This document shows positions 794-20,573 of a stretch of DNA of 24,792 bases, in pieces (the first letter of the stretch is position 1; every line of letters starts with the position of its first letter). The translations under genes were made by a program, and so were the position numbers. The notes below the pieces were generated by a model. The model saw nothing but the letters and a program-made list of their open reading frames with translations. It had not been told where the DNA came from and made no database searches. Source of the DNA: Syntrophaceae bacterium UBA4778 (GTDB lineage Bacteria > Desulfobacterota > Syntrophia > Syntrophales > UBA4778); NCBI GenBank assembly GCA_002403175.1, contig DHHG01000068.1, positions 1 through 24,792 of the forward strand, written 5' to 3'.

Positions 794-820
794 TTAGGAA
801 CCCATTCTGGAATTCGGGGG

Positions 821-847
821 GGGGTCAGAATCCTGACCCCTTTTTTT
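821..847 (+). terminator. intrinsic (Rho-independent) terminator
   Basis: A perfect 8-bp stem, GGGGTCAG (821-828) and CTGACCCC (833-840), closes a 4-nt AATC loop and runs straight into seven T residues (841-847). It lies 28 bp after the DUF1178 stop and 144 bp before the next gene. It begins inside a run of nine G (816-824). Confidence 0.93.
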
Positions 848-877: not shown

Positions 878-984
878 TTTTTATGGAGTTTTACTTCAAT
901 TGGCTTTTTTGATTAGACGCAAGTCCAAATAGCACGGAAAAAAAATTATATGAAACAAATAGCTGAGTTAAAAACCGGTGCTCC

Positions 985-3294
985 ATGAAAGAGTCGGCTA
1001 ACTCTGTTTTGAAGTTAATAGGAAACACTCCGCTCGTTGAGATCCGAAACCTCAATCCCAATGCTGCAGTGAAGATTTTCGCGAAACTGGAGAGCGCCAA
1101 CCCTGGGGGGTCGGTAAAAGACAGGGTCGCTCTTTCCATGATAGAGCGCGCAGAACAGAGGGGAGAACTGACCAAGGATAAAATTATTCTGGAAGCAACC
1201 AGCGGAAATACCGGAATCGGATTGGCCATGGTCGCCGCCGTAAAAGGATACAAGCTTCTGCTGATGATGCCGGAATCGGCAAGCGAGGAGAGGAAAAAAA
1301 TTCTCAAGGCATTGGGGGCGGAATTGCGTTTAACACCCGCAGCATTGGGAACAGATGGAGCAATCGAGGAAGCCTACCACTTGGCCCGTGAAAATCCGGA
1401 CAAGTATTTTTGCACGGATCAGTTCAATAATGAAGACAACATAGCCGCTCACTATTACGGAACGGCGGAGGAAATATGGAACCAGACCGGGGGCAAGGTC
1501 ACCATGATTGTCTCTTCCATAGGAACCTCCGGAACGATTATGGGTATTTCCAAGCGATTAAAGGAGTACGATCCTGCAATCCGGATTATTGCGGTCGAAC
1601 CCTATTTGCGCCATAAGATACAAGGGCTCAAAAACATGAAAGAGTCCTATCAGCCCGGAATTTACGACAGAAGCAGACTCGATGAGAAAGTAAATATTCT
1701 CGACGAGGAGGCATTTGAAATGGCCCGCAGATTATCACGCGAGGAGGGCATCCTTGCGGGCATGAGCTCGGGCGCAGCTATGCATGTCGCCATCGAAAAA
1801 GCAAAGACCCTCGACAAAGGCCTCATCGTAGTTATTCTACCGGACAGTGCAGAGAGATATCTCAGCACGGACCTCTTTGCTGATAGGCAAAAATCCTCAT
1901 TACGCATTTACAATACATTGACAAGAAACAAGGAATCTTTCGAACCGATCCAACCGGATACAGTTCTGATGCACACCTGCGGGCCGACCGTTCATGAAGT
2001 CCCGCATATCGGCAACTACCGAAGATTTGTCGTATCCGATATGATTATGAGATACCTGGAATACAAGGGCTATCAGGTCAGGCATTTCACGAATATTGTG
2101 GATCTCGCCGACAGATCCATAAAGGGAGCAGATCGTGCAGGACAGGATCTCAGGGAGTTCACAAGCCGGCGCCTTGAAGAATTCATGAAAGATATTTCAG
2201 AGCTGAATATCCGGAAAGATACTCAATATCCGAGGGCAAGCGAGAACGTAGATGCAATGATAAAACTCGCGGAGACGCTCATGGACAAAGGATTTGCTTA
2301 CGAAAAGCTCCGCTCCGTCTATTTTGATATCTCCAAACTGGATGATTACGGAATTTTATCCAACATCAGACTTGATCAGAACAGGCGAGAGAAAACGATC
2401 GATCAGGACGATTACGAAAAAGACAGCCCTATGGATTTTACACTTTTAAAAAGATCCAATCTGGCCGAATTGAAAAGGGGTGTTTTTTATAAGACCAAAT
2501 GGGGGAATGTCAGGCCAAGCTGGCATCTTGAATGTGCCGCAATCTCGATGAAGTACCTTTCGGATACGTTCGACATACACGCCAGTGGATCGGATATCAT
2601 TTTTCCTCATTGTGAAAATGTCCTGGCCATCGGAAAGGCAAAAACAGGGAAACATACGGCGAATTACTGGATCAATACGGAATTGGTCATGCGTGACGGA
2701 AAGAAAATGTCAAGATCCATGGACAACTCGTTCACTTTGCAGGATCTGATGCAAAAAGGCTATCACCCAAAGGAGATCCGCTATTTCCTTCTCAGTTCTC
2801 ATTATCGAAAGCCGTTGAATTTTTCCTTTGGAGCACTGGACACTGCTAAAAATACGATCCGGCATCTGGATGAATTTATCCAGCATTTAATGCGTTACCG
2901 ATCAGGGAGGGGCTGCCCCGATGTTGATCAGTTCCTTTACGATTTGAATCATGGCTTCTCAGAAGCCATGGATGATGATTTCAATATATCGCAGGTCTTC
3001 GCTCACCTTTTCGATTTTGTTAAAAAGATAAATAAACCCCTGAACAAAGGCGATCTAGGTGTAGCGGAACGAGATCGTGTTCTGGAGACAATGAGAAAAA
3101 TCGATTCCGTCCTGGGCATAATGAATTTTTCGGAGGAAAAGCTGGATCAGGAATCATTTGATCTTTTGCAGTTGCGGGAAGAAGCCAGAAAGGCCGGAAA
3201 CTGGGAGCAATCAGATCGGATCAGAAGAACGCTTGCTGAAAAAGGGGTTTTGGTCCAGGATACAGTGAATGGAACGATCTGGCGAAAAGAATAA
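985..3294 (+). CDS. cysS: fused PLP-dependent cysteine synthase and cysteinyl-tRNA synthetase
   Basis: One uninterrupted 769-residue frame. Residues about 1-303 are a complete CysK/CysM-type cysteine synthase (O-acetylserine + sulfide to cysteine). It has NPGGSVKDR with the PLP lysine K45, TSGNTG, GTSGT, the SSGAA loop and a YLST end that marks the usual C terminus of the enzyme; the pattern is closer to CysM than CysK. After only about 7-10 linking residues, residues about 313-769 form a full-length CysRS. It has CGPTV (C332), HIGN (341-344), WHLEC (W513, C517), FPHCENV (542-548), KMSRS (574-578), the anticodon-binding region and the typical C-terminal tail ending in a TIWR-like motif. Relative to E. 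coli CysRS, the zinc ligands C28, C209 and H234 are kept but E238 is V546; see findings. The gene has its own candidate promoter. The start at 985 agrees with the family N terminus, though the ribosome site is weak. Both catalytic cores look intact apart from the noted substitutions; whether the CysRS half charges tRNA-Cys is uncertain. Confidence 0.93.
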   Translation: MKESANSVLKLIGNTPLVEIRNLNPNAAVKIFAKLESANPGGSVKDRVALSMIERAEQRGELTKDKIILEATSGNTGIGLAMVAAVKGYKLLLMMPESASEERKKILKALGAELRLTPAALGTDGAIEEAYHLARENPDKYFCTDQFNNEDNIAAHYYGTAEEIWNQTGGKVTMIVSSIGTSGTIMGISKRLKEYDPAIRIIAVEPYLRHKIQGLKNMKESYQPGIYDRSRLDEKVNILDEEAFEMARRLSREEGILAGMSSGAAMHVAIEKAKTLDKGLIVVILPDSAERYLSTDLFADRQKSSLRIYNTLTRNKESFEPIQPDTVLMHTCGPTVHEVPHIGNYRRFVVSDMIMRYLEYKGYQVRHFTNIVDLADRSIKGADRAGQDLREFTSRRLEEFMKDISELNIRKDTQYPRASENVDAMIKLAETLMDKGFAYEKLRSVYFDISKLDDYGILSNIRLDQNRREKTIDQDDYEKDSPMDFTLLKRSNLAELKRGVFYKTKWGNVRPSWHLECAAISMKYLSDTFDIHASGSDIIFPHCENVLAIGKAKTGKHTANYWINTELVMRDGKKMSRSMDNSFTLQDLMQKGYHPKEIRYFLLSSHYRKPLNFSFGALDTAKNTIRHLDEFIQHLMRYRSGRGCPDVDQFLYDLNHGFSEAMDDDFNISQVFAHLFDFVKKINKPLNKGDLGVAERDRVLETMRKIDSVLGIMNFSEEKLDQESFDLLQLREEARKAGNWEQSDRIRRTLAEKGVLVQDTVNGTIWRKE

Positions 3295-3343: not shown

Positions 3344-4930
3344 CTAAATCAGAACCCTGTCAGATGCCCTCCTGCGTTTATTGCTCTTATGCAGAGGAGC
3401 AGAAAGCGTTGTACAAACCCCTTCCCCGGAATTTGATTCTATGCTCATGGCGCCTCCGATATGGGTCAGGCGCTCTCTGATACTGAAAAGCCCGAATCCT
3501 TTCTCCGAACTTTCCGGAGATTCAGATTTGTACGTAAATCCGACCCCGTCGTCTTTCACCTGGATCCGAATCTTCTCCTGAGACATCCCCAAATTAACCT
3601 GAATCCGACTGGCCTTTGCATGTTTTATGCTGTTCATCAAAAGCTCGCGCGTGGCCTGATATAGCAGGATCTGAAAATCATATTCCGGAACCTGAACCCG
3701 CTCCTCTATAGAGAGGGAAACCGGGATTCCATATCTTTCCTGTATCTGTTCAGTAAGCCACTCTACAGCCGCAGGAAATCCAAATTGATGGAGAACCGGA
3801 GAGCTCAATTCCCTTGTAATGGACCGTGTATCCTGAATAGCACTCTCAACTAGTTGAAGGATTTGATTGAGCGGTTCGGTCTGAATACCCTGCGTACCCT
3901 CTCGAAGCACTTCCAGCTTCAATTTGGAGATAGCGAGCGTCTGACCGATACGCTCGTGCAACTCCGTGGCAAGTCTCTGCCTTTCCCTTTCTTCAGCCAG
4001 TGTCAACTCGGATGTCATAGAACGAAGCTTCTCGTGATAACCCTGGAGGATTTTTTCGGTCTGATCCCGTTTCATGATCTCCGACTGAAGTTTCAGATTC
4101 GTTTTTTCCAGTTCACTGTGAGCCTGTTTCAGGACATCCTCGGCGTACTTGCGTTCCGTAATATCCTTGGAAATAACAGTGACCGAAACCACCTTGCCTG
4201 TCTCCGGGTCCCTCACAGGACTCAACGTCCTCAGGTAATACCGGTTGTCCCCCGCTCCGCTGTCCTCAAACTGAATGGATGATCCGCTTTCGATCACTTG
4301 AGGCAACTTCGAAAGCAGCTCCTCTTCCTGCCTCCCGGTATGAAAGGATCCGTATGGACGACCGATCACTTCCTCAGGGCTGAGCCCTATCCGGGAAAGA
4401 TATTTCTCATTGGCAAAAAGATAAACACCGGAAGGGTCCAGCATGTATATGGAATCGTCCGTCGATTCAACTAGAGACCGATACTTCTCTTCCGAATCGC
4501 GGAGTTTTTTCTCCATCGCTTTGCGCTGCTTTCTTTCCTGAACATCGCGCATCGCCCTTAAAACAGCGGATGGAAGACGGGAGAGACGATCCTTCAATAT
4601 ATAATCGGTAGCACCTTCCCGCAGAAGTTCGATCGCCCGCTCCTCACCCATTGCGCCTGATACAAAGATGAACGGCAACTCGGGCATCCGGCGTCGCGTA
4701 ATGCCCAAAGCAGACATCCCATCAAAAGACGGCAGAGAGTAATCCGCTAAAATCAGATCCGGGCAGAACTCCTCCAATGTCCGGGTAAAATCTTCCCGCG
4801 TCTCAACACGTCGCGCGGTGAATCCAATACCGGCACTCTGCAGCTCGTATTGCATCAAGTCCGCATCCGACTCCAGATCCTCCACGATCAGAATCCGCAA
4901 CGGCTCTTGGGTTTTATGGGATTTTGGCAT
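3344..4930 (-). CDS. receiver-PAS hybrid histidine kinase (NarL/HisKA_3 type)
   Basis: A 528-residue cytoplasmic signalling protein. Residues about 11-130 are a CheY-like receiver (acidic pair E17/D18, phospho-acceptor D63, VSGA and YILKD motifs). Residues about 150-275 are a PAS domain ending in the DITERK signature, and a short coiled coil follows. A HisKA_3-like dimerisation domain carries ELHERIGQ with H325, and the HATPase has N, DDGVGF and GFGLFSIRERL motifs. It probably receives a phosphoryl group on D63 and autophosphorylates H325; its partner regulator is not in the window. The upstream diguanylate-cyclase gene stops one base before this ATG (TAA-T-ATG), so the two are probably co-transcribed and translationally coupled. 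A TTG in frame at 4951 would extend it by 7 residues, but the ATG gives the same short leader as the paralogues. Residues up to about 275 are nearly identical to the upstream gene. Confidence 0.88.
   Translation of the reverse strand: MPKSHKTQEPLRILIVEDLESDADLMQYELQSAGIGFTARRVETREDFTRTLEEFCPDLILADYSLPSFDGMSALGITRRRMPELPFIFVSGAMGEERAIELLREGATDYILKDRLSRLPSAVLRAMRDVQERKQRKAMEKKLRDSEEKYRSLVESTDDSIYMLDPSGVYLFANEKYLSRIGLSPEEVIGRPYGSFHTGRQEEELLSKLPQVIESGSSIQFEDSGAGDNRYYLRTLSPVRDPETGKVVSVTVISKDITERKYAEDVLKQAHSELEKTNLKLQSEIMKRDQTEKILQGYHEKLRSMTSELTLAEERERQRLATELHERIGQTLAISKLKLEVLREGTQGIQTEPLNQILQLVESAIQDTRSITRELSSPVLHQFGFPAAVEWLTEQIQERYGIPVSLSIEERVQVPEYDFQILLYQATRELLMNSIKHAKASRIQVNLGMSQEKIRIQVKDDGVGFTYKSESPESSEKGFGLFSIRERLTHIGGAMSIESNSGEGVCTTLSAPLHKSNKRRRASDRVLI
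4104..4903. repeat. 800-bp direct repeat, copy 1 (receiver-PAS module)
   Basis: This aligns base for base, without insertions or deletions, to 6076-6875 (constant offset 1972). I count about 30 mismatches by eye, roughly 96% identity. It encodes the receiver and PAS domains of the histidine kinase. Differences cluster in the receiver-coding end, while 4205-4357 has no mismatch to its partner. Both boundaries fall inside the coding sequence, and flanking sequence is unrelated. Confidence 0.9.
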
Positions 4931-4931
4931 A

Positions 4932-6899
4932 TTAAGGCTCAAATAAGGCAACCTGATTTCGGCCCTGCACCTTTGCCCTGTAAAGGGCGATATCCGCCTT
5001 TTGAAGAACTTGATCCACCGTATCCCCGTTATCGGGAAAAACAGCTATACCGATCGAAACGGTTTTTCTTCCCAACGAATGTCCCTGATATTGAATTTCC
5101 ATTTCATTGATCTGCTTCCGGAGGGATTCCGCTCTCTGGATCACCACCTCCGGATATGTCTCCGGCAGAACGATGACGAACTCTTCTCCTCCGTAACGAC
5201 AGGCAAAATCTTCCGTTCGGACCTGCCCCTTCAAAAATGCCCCTAGTTCACGTAAATAGACGTCGCCAGCCTCATGTCCAAAAGTGTCATTGATATTTTT
5301 AAAAAAATCTATATCCAGCATCATGATCCCCAGAGGCGTTCCTTTTCGAGCCATTCTGTGCAATTCCCGGTTCAGTAGCTCCCCAAGGTATCTACGATTA
5401 TAAAGACCGGTTAATGCATCGTGCATGGATTGGATGTAGAGCGTTTCCCTGAGCCTGAAATTGGCAAGAGAGAGCGCGGTAGCTTCAGCAACGGCAATGG
5501 CCAACTGCTGCTTGTGCTTAATAAGCCTCTCTCGTGTTTCCTTCGGATAACTTTTCCAAGCAGGATCAAAAATCAATGTAAGAAGACCTAGCGTTTCCCC
5601 CTGCGCAGTCATAGGTACATCAAAATAATCAACTCCTAAGGATTTAATGTGGGCACAAACCAATTCAGAACGAGAACTTTCTACCAGATAGGGACGCCCT
5701 AGCCGTAGCGCCCAACACTCCTTCGGTTCAAGAATCTGATCCTCTTGACTATCCTTCCCCCAAGAGACAACAGTCTCAAGGAGGTTCTTATCAGAATCCA
5801 GGAGATAGACGGATCCGGATTCGGTTGAGAATAACTTCTGAAAAGATCGTGCTATCACCTGATGAGCTTCCTGAACAGAAACACATGCCTGAAGAAGACT
5901 GCTGGTCTCACTGAGAATCTCAATCTCACGATTCCTGATTTCCAATTCCTTTATTGTAGATGAAAGCTCTTCATTGGTTTTGATTAATGCATTCTCCGCA
6001 ATCTTTCTTTCTTCTACTTCCTGTTTTAAGAGATCATTTGAAGCAGCCAGCTCTGCGGTACGTTCCTTAACCCTGTTTTCCAGTTCACTGTGAGCCTGTT
6101 TCAGGACATCCTCGGCGTACTTGCGTTCCGTAATATCCTTGGAAATAACAGTGACTGAAACCACCTTCCCTGTCTCCGGGTCCCTCACAGGACTCAACGT
6201 CCTCAGGTAATACCGGTTGTCCCCCGCTCCGCTGTCCTCAAACTGAATGGATGATCCGCTTTCGATCACTTGAGGCAACTTCGAAAGCAGCTCCTCTTCC
6301 TGCCTCCCGGTATGAAAGGATCCGTATGGACGGCCGATCACTTCCTCCGGGCTGAGTCCTATCCGGGAAAGATATTTCTCATTGGCAAAAAGATAAACAC
6401 CGGAAGGGTCCAGCATGTATATGGAATCGTCCGTCGATTCGACAAGAGACCGATACTTCTCTTCCGAATCGCGGAGCTTTTTTTCCATCGCTTTGCGCTG
6501 CTTTCTTTCCTGAACATCGCGCATCGCCCTTAAAACAGCGGATGGAAGACGGGAGAGACGATCCTTCAATATATAATCGGTCGCACCTTCCCGCAGAAGT
6601 TCGATCGCCCGCTCTTCCCCCATTGCGCCTGAGACAAAGATGAACGGCAGCTCGGGCCTCTGGCGTCGCGTAATGCCCAAAGCAGACATCCCGTCAAAAG
6701 ACGGCAGGGAGTAATCCGCTAAAATCAGATCCGGGCAGAACTCCTCCAATGTCCGGGTGAACGCTTCCCGTGTCTCAACCCGGCGCGAGGTGAATTCAAT
6801 ACCGGCACTCTGCAGCTCGTATTGCATCAAGTCCGCATCCGACTCCAGATCCTCTACGATCAGAATCCGCAACGGTTTTTTGGGTGATTCAATTTCCAT
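4932..6899 (-). CDS. receiver-PAS-GAF-GGDEF diguanylate cyclase
   Basis: A 655-residue response-regulator-like cyclase predicted to make cyclic di-GMP from 2 GTP. From the N terminus it has a receiver (LRILIVEDLESDAD, then ILADYSLPSFDG with the acceptor Asp), PAS (to DITERK), a coiled coil, GAF (about 335-470) and GGDEF. The active motif is GGEEF at residues 570-574, preceded five residues earlier by RTED (561-564), which fits the RxxD inhibitory I-site. There is no EAL or HD-GYP domain and no membrane segment. The frame continues upstream to an ATG at 6989, but that codon has no ribosome site. I prefer 6899, which follows AAGGGG and gives an 11-residue leader matching the downstream paralogue. 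It is first in a two-gene unit with the histidine kinase. The receiver suggests control by a kinase outside the window, possibly shared with the neighbour. Confidence 0.88.
   Translation of the reverse strand: MEIESPKKPLRILIVEDLESDADLMQYELQSAGIEFTSRRVETREAFTRTLEEFCPDLILADYSLPSFDGMSALGITRRQRPELPFIFVSGAMGEERAIELLREGATDYILKDRLSRLPSAVLRAMRDVQERKQRKAMEKKLRDSEEKYRSLVESTDDSIYMLDPSGVYLFANEKYLSRIGLSPEEVIGRPYGSFHTGRQEEELLSKLPQVIESGSSIQFEDSGAGDNRYYLRTLSPVRDPETGKVVSVTVISKDITERKYAEDVLKQAHSELENRVKERTAELAASNDLLKQEVEERKIAENALIKTNEELSSTIKELEIRNREIEILSETSSLLQACVSVQEAHQVIARSFQKLFSTESGSVYLLDSDKNLLETVVSWGKDSQEDQILEPKECWALRLGRPYLVESSRSELVCAHIKSLGVDYFDVPMTAQGETLGLLTLIFDPAWKSYPKETRERLIKHKQQLAIAVAEATALSLANFRLRETLYIQSMHDALTGLYNRRYLGELLNRELHRMARKGTPLGIMMLDIDFFKNINDTFGHEAGDVYLRELGAFLKGQVRTEDFACRYGGEEFVIVLPETYPEVVIQRAESLRKQINEMEIQYQGHSLGRKTVSIGIAVFPDNGDTVDQVLQKADIALYRAKVQGRNQVALFEP
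6076..6875. repeat. 800-bp direct repeat, copy 2 (receiver-PAS module)
   Basis: Partner of 4104-4903, encoding the receiver and PAS domains of the diguanylate cyclase. It has the same length with no indel and is about 96% identical. The match begins at the TTTTCC before the PAS-proximal coiled coil and ends at the CGG encoding the start of the receiver beta-1 strand. The pattern fits tandem duplication or later gene conversion; the sequence alone does not say which copy is older. Confidence 0.9.
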
Positions 6900-7173
6900 A
6901 TCCCCTTCGCGTGTCAACAATAAAGGGTCTTCATCCCCTGCGCAGAAAGGTATCTTTTTTTCCGAATCGTCCGAGGAATTCGAAGCCATAATTTTATAGT
7001 AGAATCAAGTTTGAACGGAGTTGTTGAACTATCTGGGAAAAATTTAAAAACACTGTTTAGATAGAAAATGGAAGTTATCTGGGCACAAATACCTGAATCC
7101 GGCAGCGAGCACATTTCCCGCTATGCCGCGGGGTAAGCGAGCGAATCATGTTTAAACATCTTCCTCAAGGATC

Positions 7174-8497: not shown

Positions 8498-11400
8498 TTA
8501 ACCGTTAAGGTACTTCTTCAAAAACCGGGCGGTATGGGATTGTCTGGAAAGTTTGACGAGATCCTTCGGCGTACCTTCCGCAATGAGTCTTCCACCCCCT
8601 ATTCCTCCTTCCGGTCCCATGTCCAGGATATAATCGGCCTCTTTAATAACCTTGAGATTGTGCTCGATAACTAAGACCGTTGCTCCCCGATCGACCAAAT
8701 GGTGCAATATAGAAAGGAGTTTGTCGATATCTGCAAGGTGCAGCCCTGTGGTGGGCTCGTCTAATATATAAAGGGACCTTTCCGAAGATGGAATCGCTAA
8801 TTGGCGGGCAAGCTTGATACGCTGTGCCTCACCCCCAGAAAGTGTCGGGCTGGCCTGTCCGAAGGTCAAATAGTCCAGCCCGATATCGACCATGAGCTGA
8901 ACCCCTCTGGATATCTTTGGAATGGCGGCGAAGAATTCCAGCCCTTCCCCGAAAGTCATCTCCAGGACATCGTGGATTGTTTTACCGTGATATCGTATTT
9001 CCAAGGTTTCATTATTGAAGCGTCTTCCGGCGCATTCTTCACACGCAACATAGACTTCAGGAAGAAAATCCATCTCCACCCGGATCCGCCCCTGTCCGGC
9101 ACAGGCCTCGCAGCGGCCGCCGGAAACATTAAAGGAAAAGCGCCCGGCGCTGTAGCCTCGTATTCGCGATTCGGGCACGAGGGCAAAAAGACGCCGGATT
9201 TCGTCGAAGAGGCCGATGTAGGTTGCCGGTGTGGAACGGGGCGTCCTGCCAATCGGGGAATGATCGATCTCGACCACTCGGTTCAGGTGTTCCCAGCCAT
9301 GGATCGATTGAAATCCGTCTGCCACCGGAGCGGTACCCCTTGCACTTGCAACTTCCCCGTTTAGCCTGGCCCTTAATCCCTTGTAGATTACCTCTTTCAC
9401 CAAGGTTGATTTTCCGGAGCCGCTGACTCCTGTCACGCAGGTCAGTGTTCCAAGGGGAATACGAACATCCACCCCATTTAGGTTATATTTATTTGCGTTT
9501 TTGATCGTAAGCCACTGGCCGTCCTTTGATCTCCTGAGACGGGAATTGATTCGGGGGCGGTTATCATTTTTCAGATAAGCTCCTGTTATAGAATCGGCAC
9601 ACGAAATAATATTATCTATTGTACCCTCGGCGACAATTCGCCCTCCGTTAGGACCGGCGCCCGGTCCAAGATCTATGATATAGTCTCCGGACCGGATTGT
9701 CTCTTCATCATGTTCCACAACGACGATGGAATTTCCGCGTTCCTTTAATTTGCGGAGCGTTTCAATCAGGAGCACATTATCTCGCGGATGCAATCCAATC
9801 GTCGGTTCATCGAGCACATAACAGACACCCCGCATGTTAGAGCCAAGCTGAGCCGCCAGACGGATGCGCTGTGATTCTCCCCCGGAGAGGGTATCACCGG
9901 ATCGGTCGAGTGTCAGGTATCCAAGCCCGACTTGCCGGAGAAAATGAAAACGAGGCATAACTTCTCTCAGAATACTTTCTGCAACCGCCGTTTCTCTGGT
10001 TGAAAATTCAAAGGACCCAATCAGGAGCTCCGCATCCTGAACGGTTAGTCTGGTAAGTTCTCCAATCCCCCACCCCTTCAACTTGACTGCCAGGGCTTCC
10101 GGCCGCAATCGCTTTCCCAGGCATTCTGGACAGACTTCCTCGTTCACCATACCTAACCCGTCGCATGTCAGACAGGCGCCCTGACGGCTATTGAACGAAA
10201 AGAGCCTGGGGTCCAGCTCCTCAAAGCCCCGCTTGCACCTGTAGCAGTAAGCCTTCTCGCTGTACGTTTTGATCGTTTGATCGTCAGAGATGCGCACGGT
10301 TCCCTTGCCGACCCTGAGGGCTTCTCGGACCAGATCGATAAGCTGAGCCCGCCCGTGCCGGTCCAGCTGAACTTCTCCGATCAGGATATCAATATCGTGT
10401 TCGCGAAATCGGTCCAGGAGCGGAACGGGATCGAGATCATACATCTTCCCATCAACCAGAGCCTTCCGAAAGCCCTGTTTCCGGAAGCCCTGAAGCAGCT
10501 CTCGGTGAATACCCTTGCGACCGAAAACAACCGGAGCCAGAATGCCGGTATTTTTACTATGATAGCGTTCATAAACTTGCTCGATGAGAGCCTCCGGCAA
10601 AAAAGCCTGGATAGCCTCACCGCAATCGGGACAATGCTGAATCCCAAGTTTGCTATAGAGAAGACGTAGGTAATGATAAATTTCCGTCAGGGTAGCAACA
10701 GTCGAGCGTCGTCCCGATTGACTCGCCCGCTGTTCAATGGCGACTGTGGGAGGAATCCCTGATATTTGGTCAATATCGGGCCGCTCCAGAATTTTTAGAT
10801 ATTGCCGGATATAAGTGGGAAGACATTCCAGGTAACGCCGCTGCCCCTCCGCGAAAAGGATATCAAATGCCAAGGTCGATTTTCCTGAGCCGCTTACGCC
10901 TGTAACGACCACCATCTTGTCGCGAGGAATTGTGACAGAGATATCACGCAGATTGTGTTCCCGGGCCCCTCTGACAATCATCGATTTAGGGCCGGGGAAA
11001 TTCCCGCCGTTCTCTTCGGTTTCTTTCACCTTTGGAAGATTCCCTTCCAGATACGCCTGCAGGACTTCCCCCGTATAGGAGTGTTTCGTTCCGGCTATTT
11101 TTTCCGGAGTCCCGGCCGCAACGATCGTTCCCCCGCCTTCGCCCCCTTCCGGTCCGAGGTCAACGATGTAATCGGCGCATTTGATCAATTCCGGATTATG
11201 CTCGATAAAAACGATGCTGTTTCCTTCATCCACAAGTCTATTGAAGAATTCAATCAGCGGGGCAACATCATGAGGATGCAGGCCTATCGAAGGTTCGTCG
11301 AAAATGAACAGCGTATTATTCGATCTTCCAAGTCCGATCTGCTGGGCAAGCTTGAGTCTCTGAGCCTCTCCACCGGATGATGTATTTACCGGCTGTCCCA

Positions 11401-13792
11401 ATCTCAAATAACTGAGGCCGACCGATGCCAGGACCTTCAGAGGGGCAATAATTTTTTTGTACGCTGAAAAAAAAGCTATCGCTTCAGAAACCGTCAGGGA
11501 CAGAATATCACTGATATTGAGGCCCCGGTATTTTACTTCCAGAAGCTCACGGGTGAAGCGTTTCCCCGCACAGACTGGGCATTGAACGTAAACATCCGAG
11601 AGGAATTGCATTTCGATCTTCTCATATCCTTCCCCTCGACATGCCTCACAACGCCCACCGGAACTTCCGCCTGATGTATTAAATGAGAAAGAGGATGATG
11701 TGTAACCCCTTTCCTTTGCTGCTGGCTGCGCTGCCATAATGGCCCTGATCTGGTCGAAGGCCTTCATGTATGTGATCGGCGTCGCCCGAGGAGATTTTCC
11801 AATGGGCCTTTGATCTACCAGAATTATTCCATCAACCTGATCCGCACCGTCGAGGTCTAGAAATTTGCCAGGCTTTTCATCCGGATTGCCTTTCTGAAGC
11901 CTGAGTCCGCGGTATAGGATCTCGACGCCCAGGGTGCTCTTACCCGATCCGGATACTCCCGTAATCGCCGCCAATGCCCCCAGCGGGATCGTAATATCAA
12001 AGCCCTTCAGATTGTGTTCGGCCGCCCCCCGTATAGTGATGAATCGATCCGGGTTTCGCCTTTTAGCCGGGACGGGAATATGGAATGTTCCATTCAGATA
12101 AGCTCCCGTTAACGAATCTTTCTGTGTCAGAACCCCCGCCAGAGAGCCATTGTAAATAACTCTCCCTCCATGCTCTCCCGCTGCAGGACCGAGATCGATC
12201 ACATGGTCGGCCCCACCGATGATTTCCGGATCGTGTTCCACGACAATTACGGTATTTCCCATGTCCCGGAGATGATGGAGCGTACGCAAGAGTCTGCCGC
12301 TGTCGCGCGGGTGCAGTCCGATGGTTGGTTCGTCGAGAATGTATAACGTATCGACAAGAGAGGAACCCAGTGCCTTTGTCAGGCTGACGCGTTCGACTTC
12401 GCCACCTGAAAGGGTTCGGGACTGCCTATCCAGGGTCAGATAATCGAGTCCGACATCCATTAGATAACGCAACCTGCCGCGGATCTCTCTCAAAAGCAAC
12501 GTGACGGCTTCGTCGTTGGTTGAATCAGGCAGCTCCTTCGCGGATTTGTGATCGAGTCCGCTGAGAAATGCAAGCGCCTCAGCGATCGTCAGCCGATTAA
12601 CGTCCCCGATATTCTGCCCCATGATCCTCCAGAGGAGTGTCTCCTTTTTGAATCGGCTGCCGTTGCAGGCGGGACAGGTAATGTATCCCCGGTACCGCGA
12701 CAGAAAAACGCGGACATGGAGTTTATAGCGTTTGGTCTCCAGCCAGCGGAAAAAGCCCCGGATGCCATAGAAATCCTTATCTCCGTCAATGATTAGATTC
12801 TGCTGCTCTTCCTTGAGTTTGCCAAAAGGAACATCAATCGGAATTTTTCGCCGTCTGCAAAAATTCAGGAGATCCTCGAATTCCACACGGGCAATGCCGG
12901 TCCAGGGTTTGATAGCCCCCTCCCGAATCGATTTGGATCGATCGGGAATGATGAGATCGAGATCGATATCAATGGTTCTCCCGAACCCCCGACACGTGTC
13001 GCACGCACCTGCGGGAGAGTTGAAAGAAAAGATATTGGCCGAGGCTTCACGGTACGCAATTCGGCAATACGAACATTCCAGGGCAGTGCTGAACTTGCGC
13101 GTTTCACCGGTTTGCAGATGGACATGGGCCCGTCCCCCCTGTTTCAGTGCCGTTTCAATCGAGTCGATGGCCCTCTTCCGCTCCGTTTGTTTAAAATGGA
13201 AGCGGTCTGCAATTATTTCCCACTCACCACGGCCGATCTCTTCAATTGGCTGGACCTTCCCCGTCCAGGCCCGGTAAAATCCGGAGCGTTGAAGCTTGGT
13301 TCGAGTAATCTCAGGATCGGCTTCGAAGGAAACGGGAAAAGTCAGGACAATGGGGGATCTCTCCTCCAGATCCAGAAGTTCCCGATAGATTGTCTGGGGC
13401 GTGTCTTTTCGGACAGGCCTTCCGCATCCTTCGCAATAGAGGGTGGCCAGGCGGGCAAATAGGAGTTTCAGATAATCGTTTACTTCCGTAATGGTCCCAA
13501 CAGTGGAACGGGAGGTCTTGATCGTGTCCCCCTGCGAAATCGCCAGCGCAGGAGGGATGCCGTCGATCTTCTCCACCTTTGGTCGATCCATCCTTTCCAT
13601 GAACTGCCGTGCATATGGCGAAAAGGTCTCCACATAGCGGCGTTGTCCTTCTGCATAAAGTACGTCAAAGGCAAGAGACGACTTTCCTGCGCCGCTCACA
13701 CCTGTGATCGCGATCAATTTGTTCAAGGGGATTTCTAGATCGAAACCTTTTAGATTATTCTGACTGACTTGCCTAAGTTTAATGGATTCCAT
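8498..13792 (-). CDS. uvrA: tandem-fused double UvrA (excinuclease ABC subunit A)
   Basis: At 1764 residues this is almost twice the usual UvrA (about 940) and consists of two complete UvrA copies in one frame, about 1-930 and 935-1764. UvrA is the ATP-dependent damage sensor of nucleotide excision repair that loads UvrB. There are four Walker A motifs (GVSGAGKS at 31-38; GVSGSGKS near 614, 967 and 1457). The four signature motifs are LSGGE, SSGGE, LSGGE and LSGGE. The four Walker B motifs are [15 protein letters not shown], and each half carries Cys-pair zinc modules (e.g. CEACRGEG...CPVC and CEACAGQG...CEEC). The second nucleotide-binding domain of the first half is odd: it has SSGGE and four extra residues before CEAC. 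The same layout is known in Chlamydia UvrA (about 1786 residues). A single-chain pseudo-dimer in place of the usual homodimer is the natural reading. The frame is intact, with no stop or frameshift. Confidence 0.96.
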
Positions 13793-18356: not shown

Positions 18357-18473
18357 AGGCGCGATTTGTAAGCCGCTTTTCACTGTTCGTACTCGTATTA
18401 CCTCTGCCGGAAAGCTCACCTTTTTTATTTAACTCTATTTTGTAATTATGCGGTGGTCAAACAGAGGATGTCT

Positions 18474-20573
18474 ATGCATCCGTTTAGCAAGCTGATCGCA
18501 GATGAAGGCAGGAATTGCTGGAGGCGAGAGCATGCCGGGCGGGTCTCTTTTCTTATAGATGCCCAGGCCTATTTTTCTGCATTTGTATCGGCTGTGGAGC
18601 AAGCAGAACAGAGTATATTCATTCTTGGATGGGACATAGACAGCCGTCTGAACCTGAATCCCGAGCATGATGCCGGCCCCTATCCGGGTATGCTGGGAAA
18701 TTTCCTGAACAAGATCGTTCGGGCCAAGAGAGAATTGAACGTCTATATTCTGAGTTGGGATTTTTCCATGATTTATCTATTCGAGCGGGAGCTGATGCCG
18801 ATATTCAAGCTGGATTGGCGTACTCATTCGAGAATTCATTTCAGGCTTGACAGCTACCATCCTCCGGGAGGATCACATCACCAAAAGATAGTTGTAATTG
18901 ATGATGCCCTTGCATTTTCAGGAGGGATGGACCTGACGGGACGCCGCTGGGACACGCCGGAACACAAGTTAGACGACCCCAGGAGAATCGATCCGTGGGG
19001 CGCTCCCTACCATCCCTTTCACGATGTTCAGATTGCAGTAGACGGGGACGCAGCCTCAGCGCTGGGCTGGCTGGCTCGCGAAAGGTGGCATCGAGTAACG
19101 GGAAAATTTCCTGAAATGCATCAAAGAAAAAATCGGCCATGGCCCGTTGATTTGAATCCCGACATGACGGATGTTGAGGTCATGATCTCCCGAACCTATA
19201 ATGATGGGGAAAACGAAATCAAGGAAGTGGCGTCGCTTTTTCTGGACATGATAGGTGCCGCGCAAGCAAAAATGTATATCGAAAATCCCTACATTACTAC
19301 ACCAAAAATCGGCGAAGCCTTGGGAAAACGTCTGCAAGAAGAGGACGGACCTGAAATGGCCATCATTATCCCAAAGCAATGCTCCGGTTGGCTCGAACAG
19401 AGTACGATGGGAGTGTACCGCGCAAGAATTCTTCGAGAACTTCACAGTTTGGATCGATACGGAAAAATGAAAATTTACTGTCCCAATCATCCGGAAATAG
19501 AAATCCACTCCAAGGTTTTTATTATAGATGACGATATCGTTCGCATTGGGTCCGCTAACCTGACCAATCGCTCCATGAACTTAGATACCGAATGCGACTT
19601 GACGATCGAAGCAGCCGGCGAACTCAGGATTCGAGAAGCTATTTCTGCTTTTCGCAACCGACTGCTCGGAGAACATCTAGGTGTAAAACCCGAATCCGTT
19701 GCCGAAACGGAGTCTGAAGAAAAGTCATTAGGTCGAACGGTGGAAAAACTAAGGCTGCTGACCGGAAAACTGGAAGTTTATTCAGAGGAGATAGAAGAGG
19801 ACAAGGAGCCTCTGTGCGACGATATCTTCTGCGACCCGGAAAAACCGGTCGACGCTAATGAAGTGATGCAGTATATGGTTCCTGATGATTTTCAGGAACC
19901 ATCAAGGGGCCGTCTCATGAGTACCATTGCTCTTCTGGCCGCTCTGGGTGCCATTACGGCAGCCTGGCATTGGACGCCTCTGAGAGACTGGGTACAGCCC
20001 GATGCGATTGCGGCCATGATGATACCGATCAGATACAGCATCATGGCACCCCTTATGGTTGTTTCTGCCTATGCCGTTTTCGGGCTGGTAATCCCAATTA
20101 CCTTCATGGTGATTTCAACCGTACTGGTATTCGATCCGTTACCCGGCTTTTGTTATGCTCTGATAGGATGCCTCACGAGCGCAAGCGTATCCTATGCTGT
20201 CGGAAAGATCCTCGGTCGGGATTTGATTTGCAAGCTGGCAGGCTCAAAACTGAATCGTATCAGCAAGCATATCATCCGGCATGGGTTTCTGGCGATCACC
20301 TTCCTTCGCATTGCCGCCGTTGCCCCGTTTACGGTAATCAACCTGATCGCGGGAGCGACACGCATTAAATACCATCATTATATTCTCGGAACGATATCCG
20401 GCATGTTGCCCGGCCTGATTGCGCTCACCTTTTTCGGAGACCGGATGGGTGCGGCAATCCGCCATCCCGATATAAAGAGCTTGTCGGTTCTGATGATCCT
20501 CATTGTCCTCTTCATGATTGTGAGCATATGGCTTTCCAGAAAAATCGGCAATCCGGCTAAAGCGAGGTCATAG
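18474..20573 (+). CDS. phospholipase D/cardiolipin synthase-like protein fused to a VTT (DedA/TVP38) membrane domain
   Basis: A 699-residue protein. Residues about 20-400 hold two PLD repeats with intact HKD motifs: H136-Q-K138-x4-D143 within GSHHQKIVVID, and H345-S-K347-x4-D352 followed by GSANLTNRSM. An acidic linker (about 405-475) follows. Residues about 485-695 have some five or six hydrophobic segments with the VTT/SNARE-associated signature (FLRIAAVAPFTVINLIAGAT). The protein probably hydrolyses or transfers phosphatidyl groups at the inner membrane, with VTT acting on lipid scrambling or transport; exact substrate is unknown. The GTG at 18453 is in frame, but the ATG at 18474 has GAGG six bases upstream. 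It has its own strong promoter. The next gene begins 7 bp after its stop. Confidence 0.92.
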   Translation: MHPFSKLIADEGRNCWRREHAGRVSFLIDAQAYFSAFVSAVEQAEQSIFILGWDIDSRLNLNPEHDAGPYPGMLGNFLNKIVRAKRELNVYILSWDFSMIYLFERELMPIFKLDWRTHSRIHFRLDSYHPPGGSHHQKIVVIDDALAFSGGMDLTGRRWDTPEHKLDDPRRIDPWGAPYHPFHDVQIAVDGDAASALGWLARERWHRVTGKFPEMHQRKNRPWPVDLNPDMTDVEVMISRTYNDGENEIKEVASLFLDMIGAAQAKMYIENPYITTPKIGEALGKRLQEEDGPEMAIIIPKQCSGWLEQSTMGVYRARILRELHSLDRYGKMKIYCPNHPEIEIHSKVFIIDDDIVRIGSANLTNRSMNLDTECDLTIEAAGELRIREAISAFRNRLLGEHLGVKPESVAETESEEKSLGRTVEKLRLLTGKLEVYSEEIEEDKEPLCDDIFCDPEKPVDANEVMQYMVPDDFQEPSRGRLMSTIALLAALGAITAAWHWTPLRDWVQPDAIAAMMIPIRYSIMAPLMVVSAYAVFGLVIPITFMVISTVLVFDPLPGFCYALIGCLTSASVSYAVGKILGRDLICKLAGSKLNRISKHIIRHGFLAITFLRIAAVAPFTVINLIAGATRIKYHHYILGTISGMLPGLIALTFFGDRMGAAIRHPDIKSLSVLMILIVLFMIVSIWLSRKIGNPAKARS

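Follow-up and report, generated by a model that had tools for sequence, protein, structure and literature searches.

A cysteine synthase fused to a cysteinyl-tRNA synthetase paralogue with an eroding activation site and a conserved anticodon reader

The window analysed here, a whole stretch of 24,792 nucleotides from Syntrophaceae bacterium UBA4778 (contig DHHG01000068.1), encodes a cysteine synthase joined in a single frame to a diverged paralogue of cysteinyl-tRNA synthetase (CysRS; Table 1). We suspect, with even confidence, that this protein and its relatives are cysteine synthases carrying a duplicated CysRS that has been withdrawn from aminoacylation and may now act as a tRNA-Cys-reading regulatory domain. 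The combination of an intact synthase, a decaying activation site, an untouched anticodon reader and another CysRS in the genome fits such a domain. Because the partner makes cysteine, the sensing of uncharged tRNA-Cys would be its simplest use.

The initial annotation described an intact CysM/CysK-type synthase and a full-length CysRS-type protein in one frame of 769 residues, and the profile matches agree. The N-terminal half scores 380 bits with TIGR01136 (cysKM; NCBIfam cut-off 344) and the C-terminal half 399 bits with TIGR00435 (cysS; NCBIfam cut-off 340), although other fusions fall below the latter cut-off (P0242, 221 bits; P0263, 279 bits; L009, 328 bits). The alignment with Escherichia coli CysRS spans residues 306-768 of the window protein at 36% identity. 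CysRS profiles match, and no HisRS profile is among the Pfam and NCBIfam matches listed for this protein. We rejected identity with the mycothiol ligase MshC (TIGR03447 scores 189 bits where 485 are required), and the protein is no member of the PADLOC defence families. The linker, counted from the threonine of YLST to the first conserved asparagine of the CysRS half, has 15-16 residues in 102 of 141 fusions and 17-23 in the other 39, so that "almost no linker" was a fair description for most of them. Such a length is compatible with coupled domains but does not prove coupling.

In a whole-genome search of an even draw from the phylum of genome G009, 156 of 395 genomes matched the fusion at E<=1e-130, and in the rows listed the matches cover nearly the whole query, with the exceptions of G027, G316 and G011 and of G079, which is also partial. 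The fusion lies on contigs of about genome size in G009, G342, G114 and G215. The best 120 protein clusters listed (762-793 residues, 66-100% identical to the window protein, P0001 being the window's own) contain both domains without exception; names among these Syntrophales-type clusters are Syntrophales, Syntrophaceae and Syntrophus, including Syntrophus aciditrophicus and S. gentianae. With both domains in 120/120 clusters, matches across the phylum and no frameshift or assembly join in the window, an assembly artefact is ruled out, and the search for the architecture and its taxonomy that had been proposed finds it spread through the phylum. A more diverged member, used as query, gave 120 further listed clusters around the Syntrophobacteraceae (hereafter the decayed set), with names that include Desulfosoma caldarium, Desulfacinum hydrothermale, Desulforhabdus amnigena, Thermodesulforhabdus norvegica and Syntrophobacter fumaroxidans (a metagenome-assembled genome, MAG). 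In the order to which G006 (a MAG from the Smithellaceae) belongs, 66 of 80 genomes match, some of them as pieces at contig ends, and within the order of G382 the fusion is present in 35 of 39. It was found in none of 198 genomes from the phylum of L042 (Nitrospirae), a set without a positive control. One listed cluster, P0288, is labelled as an Acidobacteriota MAG. A second draw from the phylum shares many genomes with the first (78/198) and adds little. Source records name some of these proteins "cysteine synthase" and others "cysteine--tRNA ligase" or "cysteinyl-tRNA synthetase". Two copies look disrupted: in L298 (from G027, a 2.8 Mb genome) an apparent frameshift at about 6767-6773 breaks the fusion near residue 592 with both parts recognisable, and the match at G667:C182:44815-46827 contains three TGA, one TAG and two TAA codons in frame and is possibly a decayed copy or a shifted frame.

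Residue counts given below refer to 142 fusions, namely those from 130 of the 156 carriers (fetched as 30 loci and 100 regions) together with L001-L010, L100 and the window; G007 and G009 are the same as L007 and L009, and G011 is L011, which is partial and was left out. For the CysRS half L298 was dropped for its apparent frameshift, leaving 141. The 120 clusters of the decayed set overlap partly with these 141 (P0242, for instance, is the protein of G345). The control comprised 110 canonical CysRS, 41 from the phylum and 69 from outside it, and E. coli numbering is used for the CysRS half throughout.

The synthase half is predicted from its sequence to be a working pyridoxal phosphate (PLP) cysteine synthase of the CysK/CysM family. 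K45, which we take by homology to be the PLP lysine, and S73-G77, G180, T181, G183, T184, S261, G263 and D287 are intact in 142/142 fusions; the SGNTG and GT.GT segments presumably form the phosphate-binding and substrate loops. The closest standalone relatives among those listed are proteins of about 295 residues that are 67-71% identical to this half, and a tree of the synthase half does not cleanly separate them from the fusions (3 changes). Some of these standalone proteins (P0158, P0178, P0191, P0193, P0198 and P0230, of about 295 residues and 68-71% identical) carry Woese-, Nano- or Pacearchaeota, Patescibacteria or Minisyncoccales labels. They are far closer to the fusion half than are the separate cysteine synthases of the carriers, which form another clade (13 loci aligned, 43-49% identical to the window's synthase half), and gene transfer between fusion carriers and these archaeal and Patescibacteria-type groups is likely.

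The CysRS half has diverged as one clade. In a tree of 54 of the 141 fusions, 21 of the 41 canonical sequences from the phylum, 35 of the 69 others and E. coli, all 54 fusion halves lie on one side of a single branch (SH-like approximate likelihood ratio test, SH-aLRT, 100). R168, W184, G201, Q241 and K269, each conserved in at least 98% of canonical enzymes, survive in no more than about 2% of fusions (K269 in 110/110 canonical sequences versus 1.4% of the 141), and because nearly all fusions have changed them, the shift is shared by the clade. Across the 141 fusions the HxG motif is kept in 69 and lost in 72, a KMSKS-like motif is kept in 42 and lost in 99, and the zinc quartet (C28, C209, H234 and E238; CCHE) is complete in 63, with C28, C209 and H234 retained together in 108. 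Among the listed Syntrophales-type clusters E238, present in 110/110 canonical enzymes, is kept in 0/120. Not one of the 120 listed clusters of the decayed set has HxG, KMSKS or either zinc cysteine. These motif counts are alignment-based, and since the KMSKS loop aligns poorly in decayed members an alignment-free search was added; it found H.G in none of the same 120 and a somewhat relaxed KMSKS pattern in one, versus 111 and 110 of 111 canonical sequences. By the chemistry of class I synthetases, proteins without these motifs should make no adenylate.

The window copy, a Syntrophales-type protein, is in an intermediate state of decay, and this branch may retain some binding of cysteine or ATP; residual activation by the window copy is conceivable. 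It matches working enzymes at HIGN, C28, C209, H234 and W205; C332 and C517 of the window protein, equivalent to C28 and C209, we take to be zinc ligands. Its HIGN was rejected as proof of inactivity given how common N40 is outside the phylum (Table 1). At columns invariant in the 110 canonical enzymes it carries the changes E238V, H235C, D71A, T68V, G201V, G226S, Q241I and K269R, and its zinc quartet reads C, C, H, V.

Persistence of the anticodon reader stands beside this erosion. R423, R or K at 427, an aromatic residue at 432, D436, R439 and D451 are present in 141/141 fusions (427 is lysine in seven), and R/K427, D436, R439 and D451 also in 72/72 of those without HxG. In the decayed set R423, R427, W432 and D436 occur in 120/120 listed clusters, R427 and W432 strictly, and the anticodon set is likewise found in 120/120 listed Syntrophales-type clusters. 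In the E. coli complex, as described in an excerpt of PMC12684709, G34 of tRNA-Cys is hydrogen-bonded by R427 and D436, stacked on W432 and held in a water network through D436 and R423. Mean pairwise identity in the catalytic domain is 0.50 among fusions versus 0.65 among canonical enzymes, and in the anticodon domain 0.41 versus 0.42. On a FastTree phylogeny of the synthase half the minimum number of changes is 16 for HxG, 11 for KMSKS, 8 for the zinc quartet and 0 for the anticodon set. Among columns conserved in canonical enzymes, those of the anticodon domain are better kept than those of the catalytic domain (Mann-Whitney p 0.004-0.012; 0.0009-0.0024 for HxG-less fusions), although these values are rough, rest on only 6-10 anticodon columns and ignore the relatedness of the sequences, which weakens them as support for a tRNA-reading role. 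It is fairly probable, judging from these residues, that the domain still binds tRNA-Cys via the anticodon.

Charging appears to be left to another protein. We examined 58 relatives of the window organism, hand-picked from the 156 carriers with a preference for long contigs and for a range of scores (G084 on that list is a non-carrier), and a second CysRS frame is present in 58/58, in 57 of them at 513-598 bits with TIGR00435; the remaining one, in G172, is a frame of 469 residues at 432 bits. Complete fusion halves score 179-457 bits with the same profile. In an earlier set a separate CysRS was found in 11/12 carriers, the exception (G010) being a fragmentary MAG. The fusion as sole CysRS is thus ruled out for the carriers tested, and a housekeeping-synthetase role was not found in these relatives. 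The check for separate genes that the initial annotation had suggested, made here on relatives, comes out differently for the two halves, as 25/58 carriers, including G009 (a single-chromosome record), have no cysteine synthase at E<=1e-70 other than the fusion. The proposal that the fusion couples cysteine synthesis to cysteine activation is therefore doubtful or wrong: a separate CysRS accompanies the fusion in these relatives, and the fused one is a diverged paralogue in which the activation motifs of many members are eroded or gone, with the anticodon-reading residues retained. Overall, that annotation is partly supported, right about a real fusion and doubtful or wrong about its functional coupling.

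The catalytic motifs of the fused CysRS halves have eroded repeatedly, and from these sequences we suggest a scenario in which a duplicated CysRS carried by a cysteine synthase was withdrawn from aminoacylation. The fused domain would bind tRNA-Cys through the anticodon. Uncharged tRNA-Cys would accumulate when cysteine is short, and by analogy with GCN2, a eukaryotic kinase controlled by its HisRS-like domain, this form would most likely be the one sensed, with cysteine synthesis raised in response. There is about an even chance that tRNA-Cys binding regulates the attached synthase. More tentatively, the fusion could be a GCN2-like bacterial device, in which the charging of tRNA-Cys would act directly on the synthase, through the pseudo-synthetase of the same chain and without a transcription step.

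Several observations weigh against this scenario. HxG, a KMSKS-like motif and CCHE are all kept in 17/141 fusions, some of which may still activate cysteine, and the window copy retains 14 of 18 hallmarks versus a canonical minimum of 16; it is not callable as dead from its own sequence, and the case for a non-charging protein rests on the family. The decayed set still has D229 (119/120), W205 (114/120) and H234 (120/120), so that some ligand may still bind in the former cleft. In the same set pairwise identity is 0.55 for the C-terminal domain, 0.63 for the catalytic domain and 0.81 for the synthase half, and the share of invariant columns is similar in the anticodon (9/59) and catalytic (52/300) domains, so that the argument rests on which residues persist and not on conservation of the whole domain. 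The persisting anticodon residues may also be partly structural. Fusions that are the sole cysteine synthase of their genome show no excess of HxG loss (the motif is kept in 15/24, versus 11/33 where a separate synthase exists). No operon partner is conserved over 111 loci, the biggest neighbour cluster occurring in 14, and several loci end near the gene. No serine acetyltransferase (TIGR01172) scores over the cut-off in 12 carriers: 7 of them have matches below it, at 131-170 bits, and the other 5 have weak matches or none. Of 14 control genomes, 8 reach the cut-off.

Other functions can be imagined for the same architecture. That the dead synthetase half is a tether, binding tRNA-Cys or CysRS-tRNA complexes and so siting synthesis beside charging without allostery, draws on the same tRNA-reading evidence and on the fact that free cysteine is toxic and oxidisable. 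We consider it unlikely, given that cysteine diffuses rapidly, that contact with the separate CysRS is without support and that the short linker (15-16 residues in most fusions) suits domain coupling at least equally well. A tRNA-independent sensor, in which free cysteine or a nucleotide bound to the domain would feed back on the synthase, has a precedent in the HisRS paralogue HisZ, which regulates HisG (PMC9437257, from an excerpt), and the joint retention of C28, C209 and H234 in 108/141 fusions, like that of D229 in the decayed set, would suit it. However, both zinc cysteines are lost from 120/120 of the decayed set while the anticodon residues persist, and a tRNA-free sensor would have no need of an anticodon domain, which makes this reading quite unlikely. 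The CysRS half could also be a structural relic that merely stabilises or oligomerises the synthase, as catalytic decay in 120/120 clusters of one set and the equal overall drift of the anticodon domain there might suggest; an anticodon set unchanged in 141/141 fusions and 120/120 clusters, and the 46 of 117 canonical-conserved columns for which the decayed set still shows conservation of 95% or more, render it improbable.

Two further possibilities would keep the protein in tRNA chemistry. A bifunctional enzyme that makes cysteine, charges tRNA-Cys and channels one to the other would agree with the full-length CysRS half of the window, which scores above the family cut-off and retains HIGN, KMSRS, C28, C209 and H234, and with the 17 motif-complete fusions. 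The other CysRS in 58/58 carriers, the loss of E238 in the window and in 120/120 listed Syntrophales-type clusters, and the disappearance of the motifs from 120/120 listed clusters around the Syntrophobacteraceae leave it very improbable. A PLP enzyme fused to a tRNA-Cys reader could also act, like SepCysS, on the aminoacyl group of a tRNA-Cys held by the dead synthetase, and tRNA-dependent cysteine synthesis is known (PMC5424206, from an excerpt). We give this only a slight chance: SepRS exceeds its cut-off in 0/33 carriers, a regular CysRS is present, and nothing in the synthase half sets it apart from ordinary cysteine synthases, of which it is the sole one in 25/58 carriers.

Among known systems, GCN2 is the nearest working parallel to a tRNA-Cys-reading synthase, and within amino-acid synthesis the nearest is HisZ, both by analogy. 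Like the fusion, GCN2 combines an enzyme with a synthetase-like domain in one chain, and according to an excerpt of PMC4335047 the enzyme is activated by this domain, which binds uncharged tRNA; for the fusion, the corresponding tRNA binding and activation are inferred from sequence. The fusion differs from GCN2 in being bacterial, in using a class I CysRS instead of HisRS and in having as its partner an enzyme that makes the same amino acid. As judged by sequence, the decayed set has the GCN2-type arrangement of a predicted non-charging domain on an enzyme, whereas the window keeps HIGN and KMSRS. HisZ is a class II protein and a separate chain; the fusion is covalent, belongs to class I and retains its anticodon domain. 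What the two share is a synthetase paralogue that regulates, or would regulate, the biosynthesis of its own amino acid, HisZ being described in an excerpt of PMC9437257 as the regulatory subunit that mediates histidine inhibition of HisZ-HisG. CysRS* of the Desulfobacterales (Mukai et al. 2017, as cited in excerpts of PMC9437257 and PMC7609411) is likewise a second paralogue of CysRS within this phylum, but it charges and is without an anticodon domain; the fusion is the reverse, with motifs decaying and CysS_C in place. MshC, another CysRS paralogue outside translation, retains activation according to excerpts of PMC2922099 and PMC9437257. CysK and CysM share the N-terminal half of the fusion but lack the CysRS half. 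In the open-licence literature searched we found no published description of the fusion. Regulatory use of synthetase paralogues is already known; new, to our knowledge, is a class I pseudo-synthetase whose anticodon reader is conserved, joined to the enzyme that makes its own amino acid and spread through a phylum.

A different CysRS paralogue, of 416-472 residues, was encountered in L107 and L314-L317 (from G004, G382, G307, G146 and G287). It stops before the anticodon domain and has intact H[IVL]GN and KMSKS motifs, with C209 replaced by aspartate (WN[IV]QD) and RHHDY[NS] in place of FPHHENE; its sequence suggests an ATP-dependent ligase that uses some substrate other than cysteine. Three matches of this type contain one or two in-frame stops, and no tRNA gene was found in L314-L317.

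Around the fusion gene in the window, Rfam finds no RNA leader and only the tRNA at 96-169 (tRNA-Pro by ARAGORN). A 12-codon ATG frame at 951-989 (+) overlaps the start of the fusion with its TGA (ATGA), and as it has no cysteine codon it is probably no attenuator. A DUF1178-like gene lies directly upstream of the fusion in 5 of 111 loci. Elsewhere in the window, translations of two neighbouring genes at 3344-6989 (-), of 535 and 685 residues, have nearly identical receiver and PAS stretches but different ends, one histidine-kinase-like and the other GGDEF-like, and the pair looks like a recent tandem duplication. The translation of 8498-13792 (-) is a protein of 1764 residues whose single chain looks like two UvrA-like halves, and 18453-20573 (+) encodes a protein of 706 residues with phospholipase D-like and VTT membrane domains (Pfam).

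Table 1. Features of the fusion gene and its upstream region in the window
Feature	Coordinates	Strand	Remarks
Terminator-like hairpin with T tract	816..845	+	3' of the DUF1178 gene (380-793); weak, with 2 such sites in the region versus 3.0 expected by shuffling
Cysteine synthase and CysRS paralogue fusion gene	985..3294	+	Single ATG-to-stop frame, 769 residues
PALP / cysteine synthase domain, residues 9-287	1009..1845	+	Pfam, 248 bits; predicted active
K45	1117..1119	+	Present in 142/142 fusions
Rossmann-type catalytic domain of the CysRS half, residues 319-622, with an altered active site	1939..2850	+	Pfam tRNA-synt_1e, 289 bits
C332 (E. coli C28), ligand position retained in window	1978..1980	+	Retained in 108/141 fusions
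HIGN (HIGH motif), residues 341-344, tolerated variant	2005..2016	+	N40 in 53/69 CysRS of the outside set
C517 (E. coli C209), ligand position retained in window	2533..2535	+	Retained in 121/141 fusions; 0/120 listed clusters around Syntrophobacteraceae
H542-C543-E-N-V546, HCENV versus canonical HHENE; zinc ligand E238 lost	2608..2622	+	Alignment
KMSRS (KMSKS motif, second K to R), residues 574-578	2704..2718	+	Alignment
DALR_2 helical domain, residues 658-713	2956..3123	+	Pfam
CysS_C anticodon-binding domain, residues 720-767	3142..3285	+	Pfam
Anticodon-domain R731, R735, W740, D744 (E. coli R423, R427, W432, D436) with R747, D759 (R439, D451)	3175..3261	+	Alignment

Labels that give these proteins a single function hide the second half and its status as a paralogue, and genomes annotated in this way seem to have a second CysRS that is probably non-charging. 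If the proposed function is true, the fusion would be a means by which bacterial metabolism reads tRNA charging directly, in parallel to GCN2. It would also constitute a control point for cysteine in much of the phylum, including species in which the fusion is the sole cysteine synthase.

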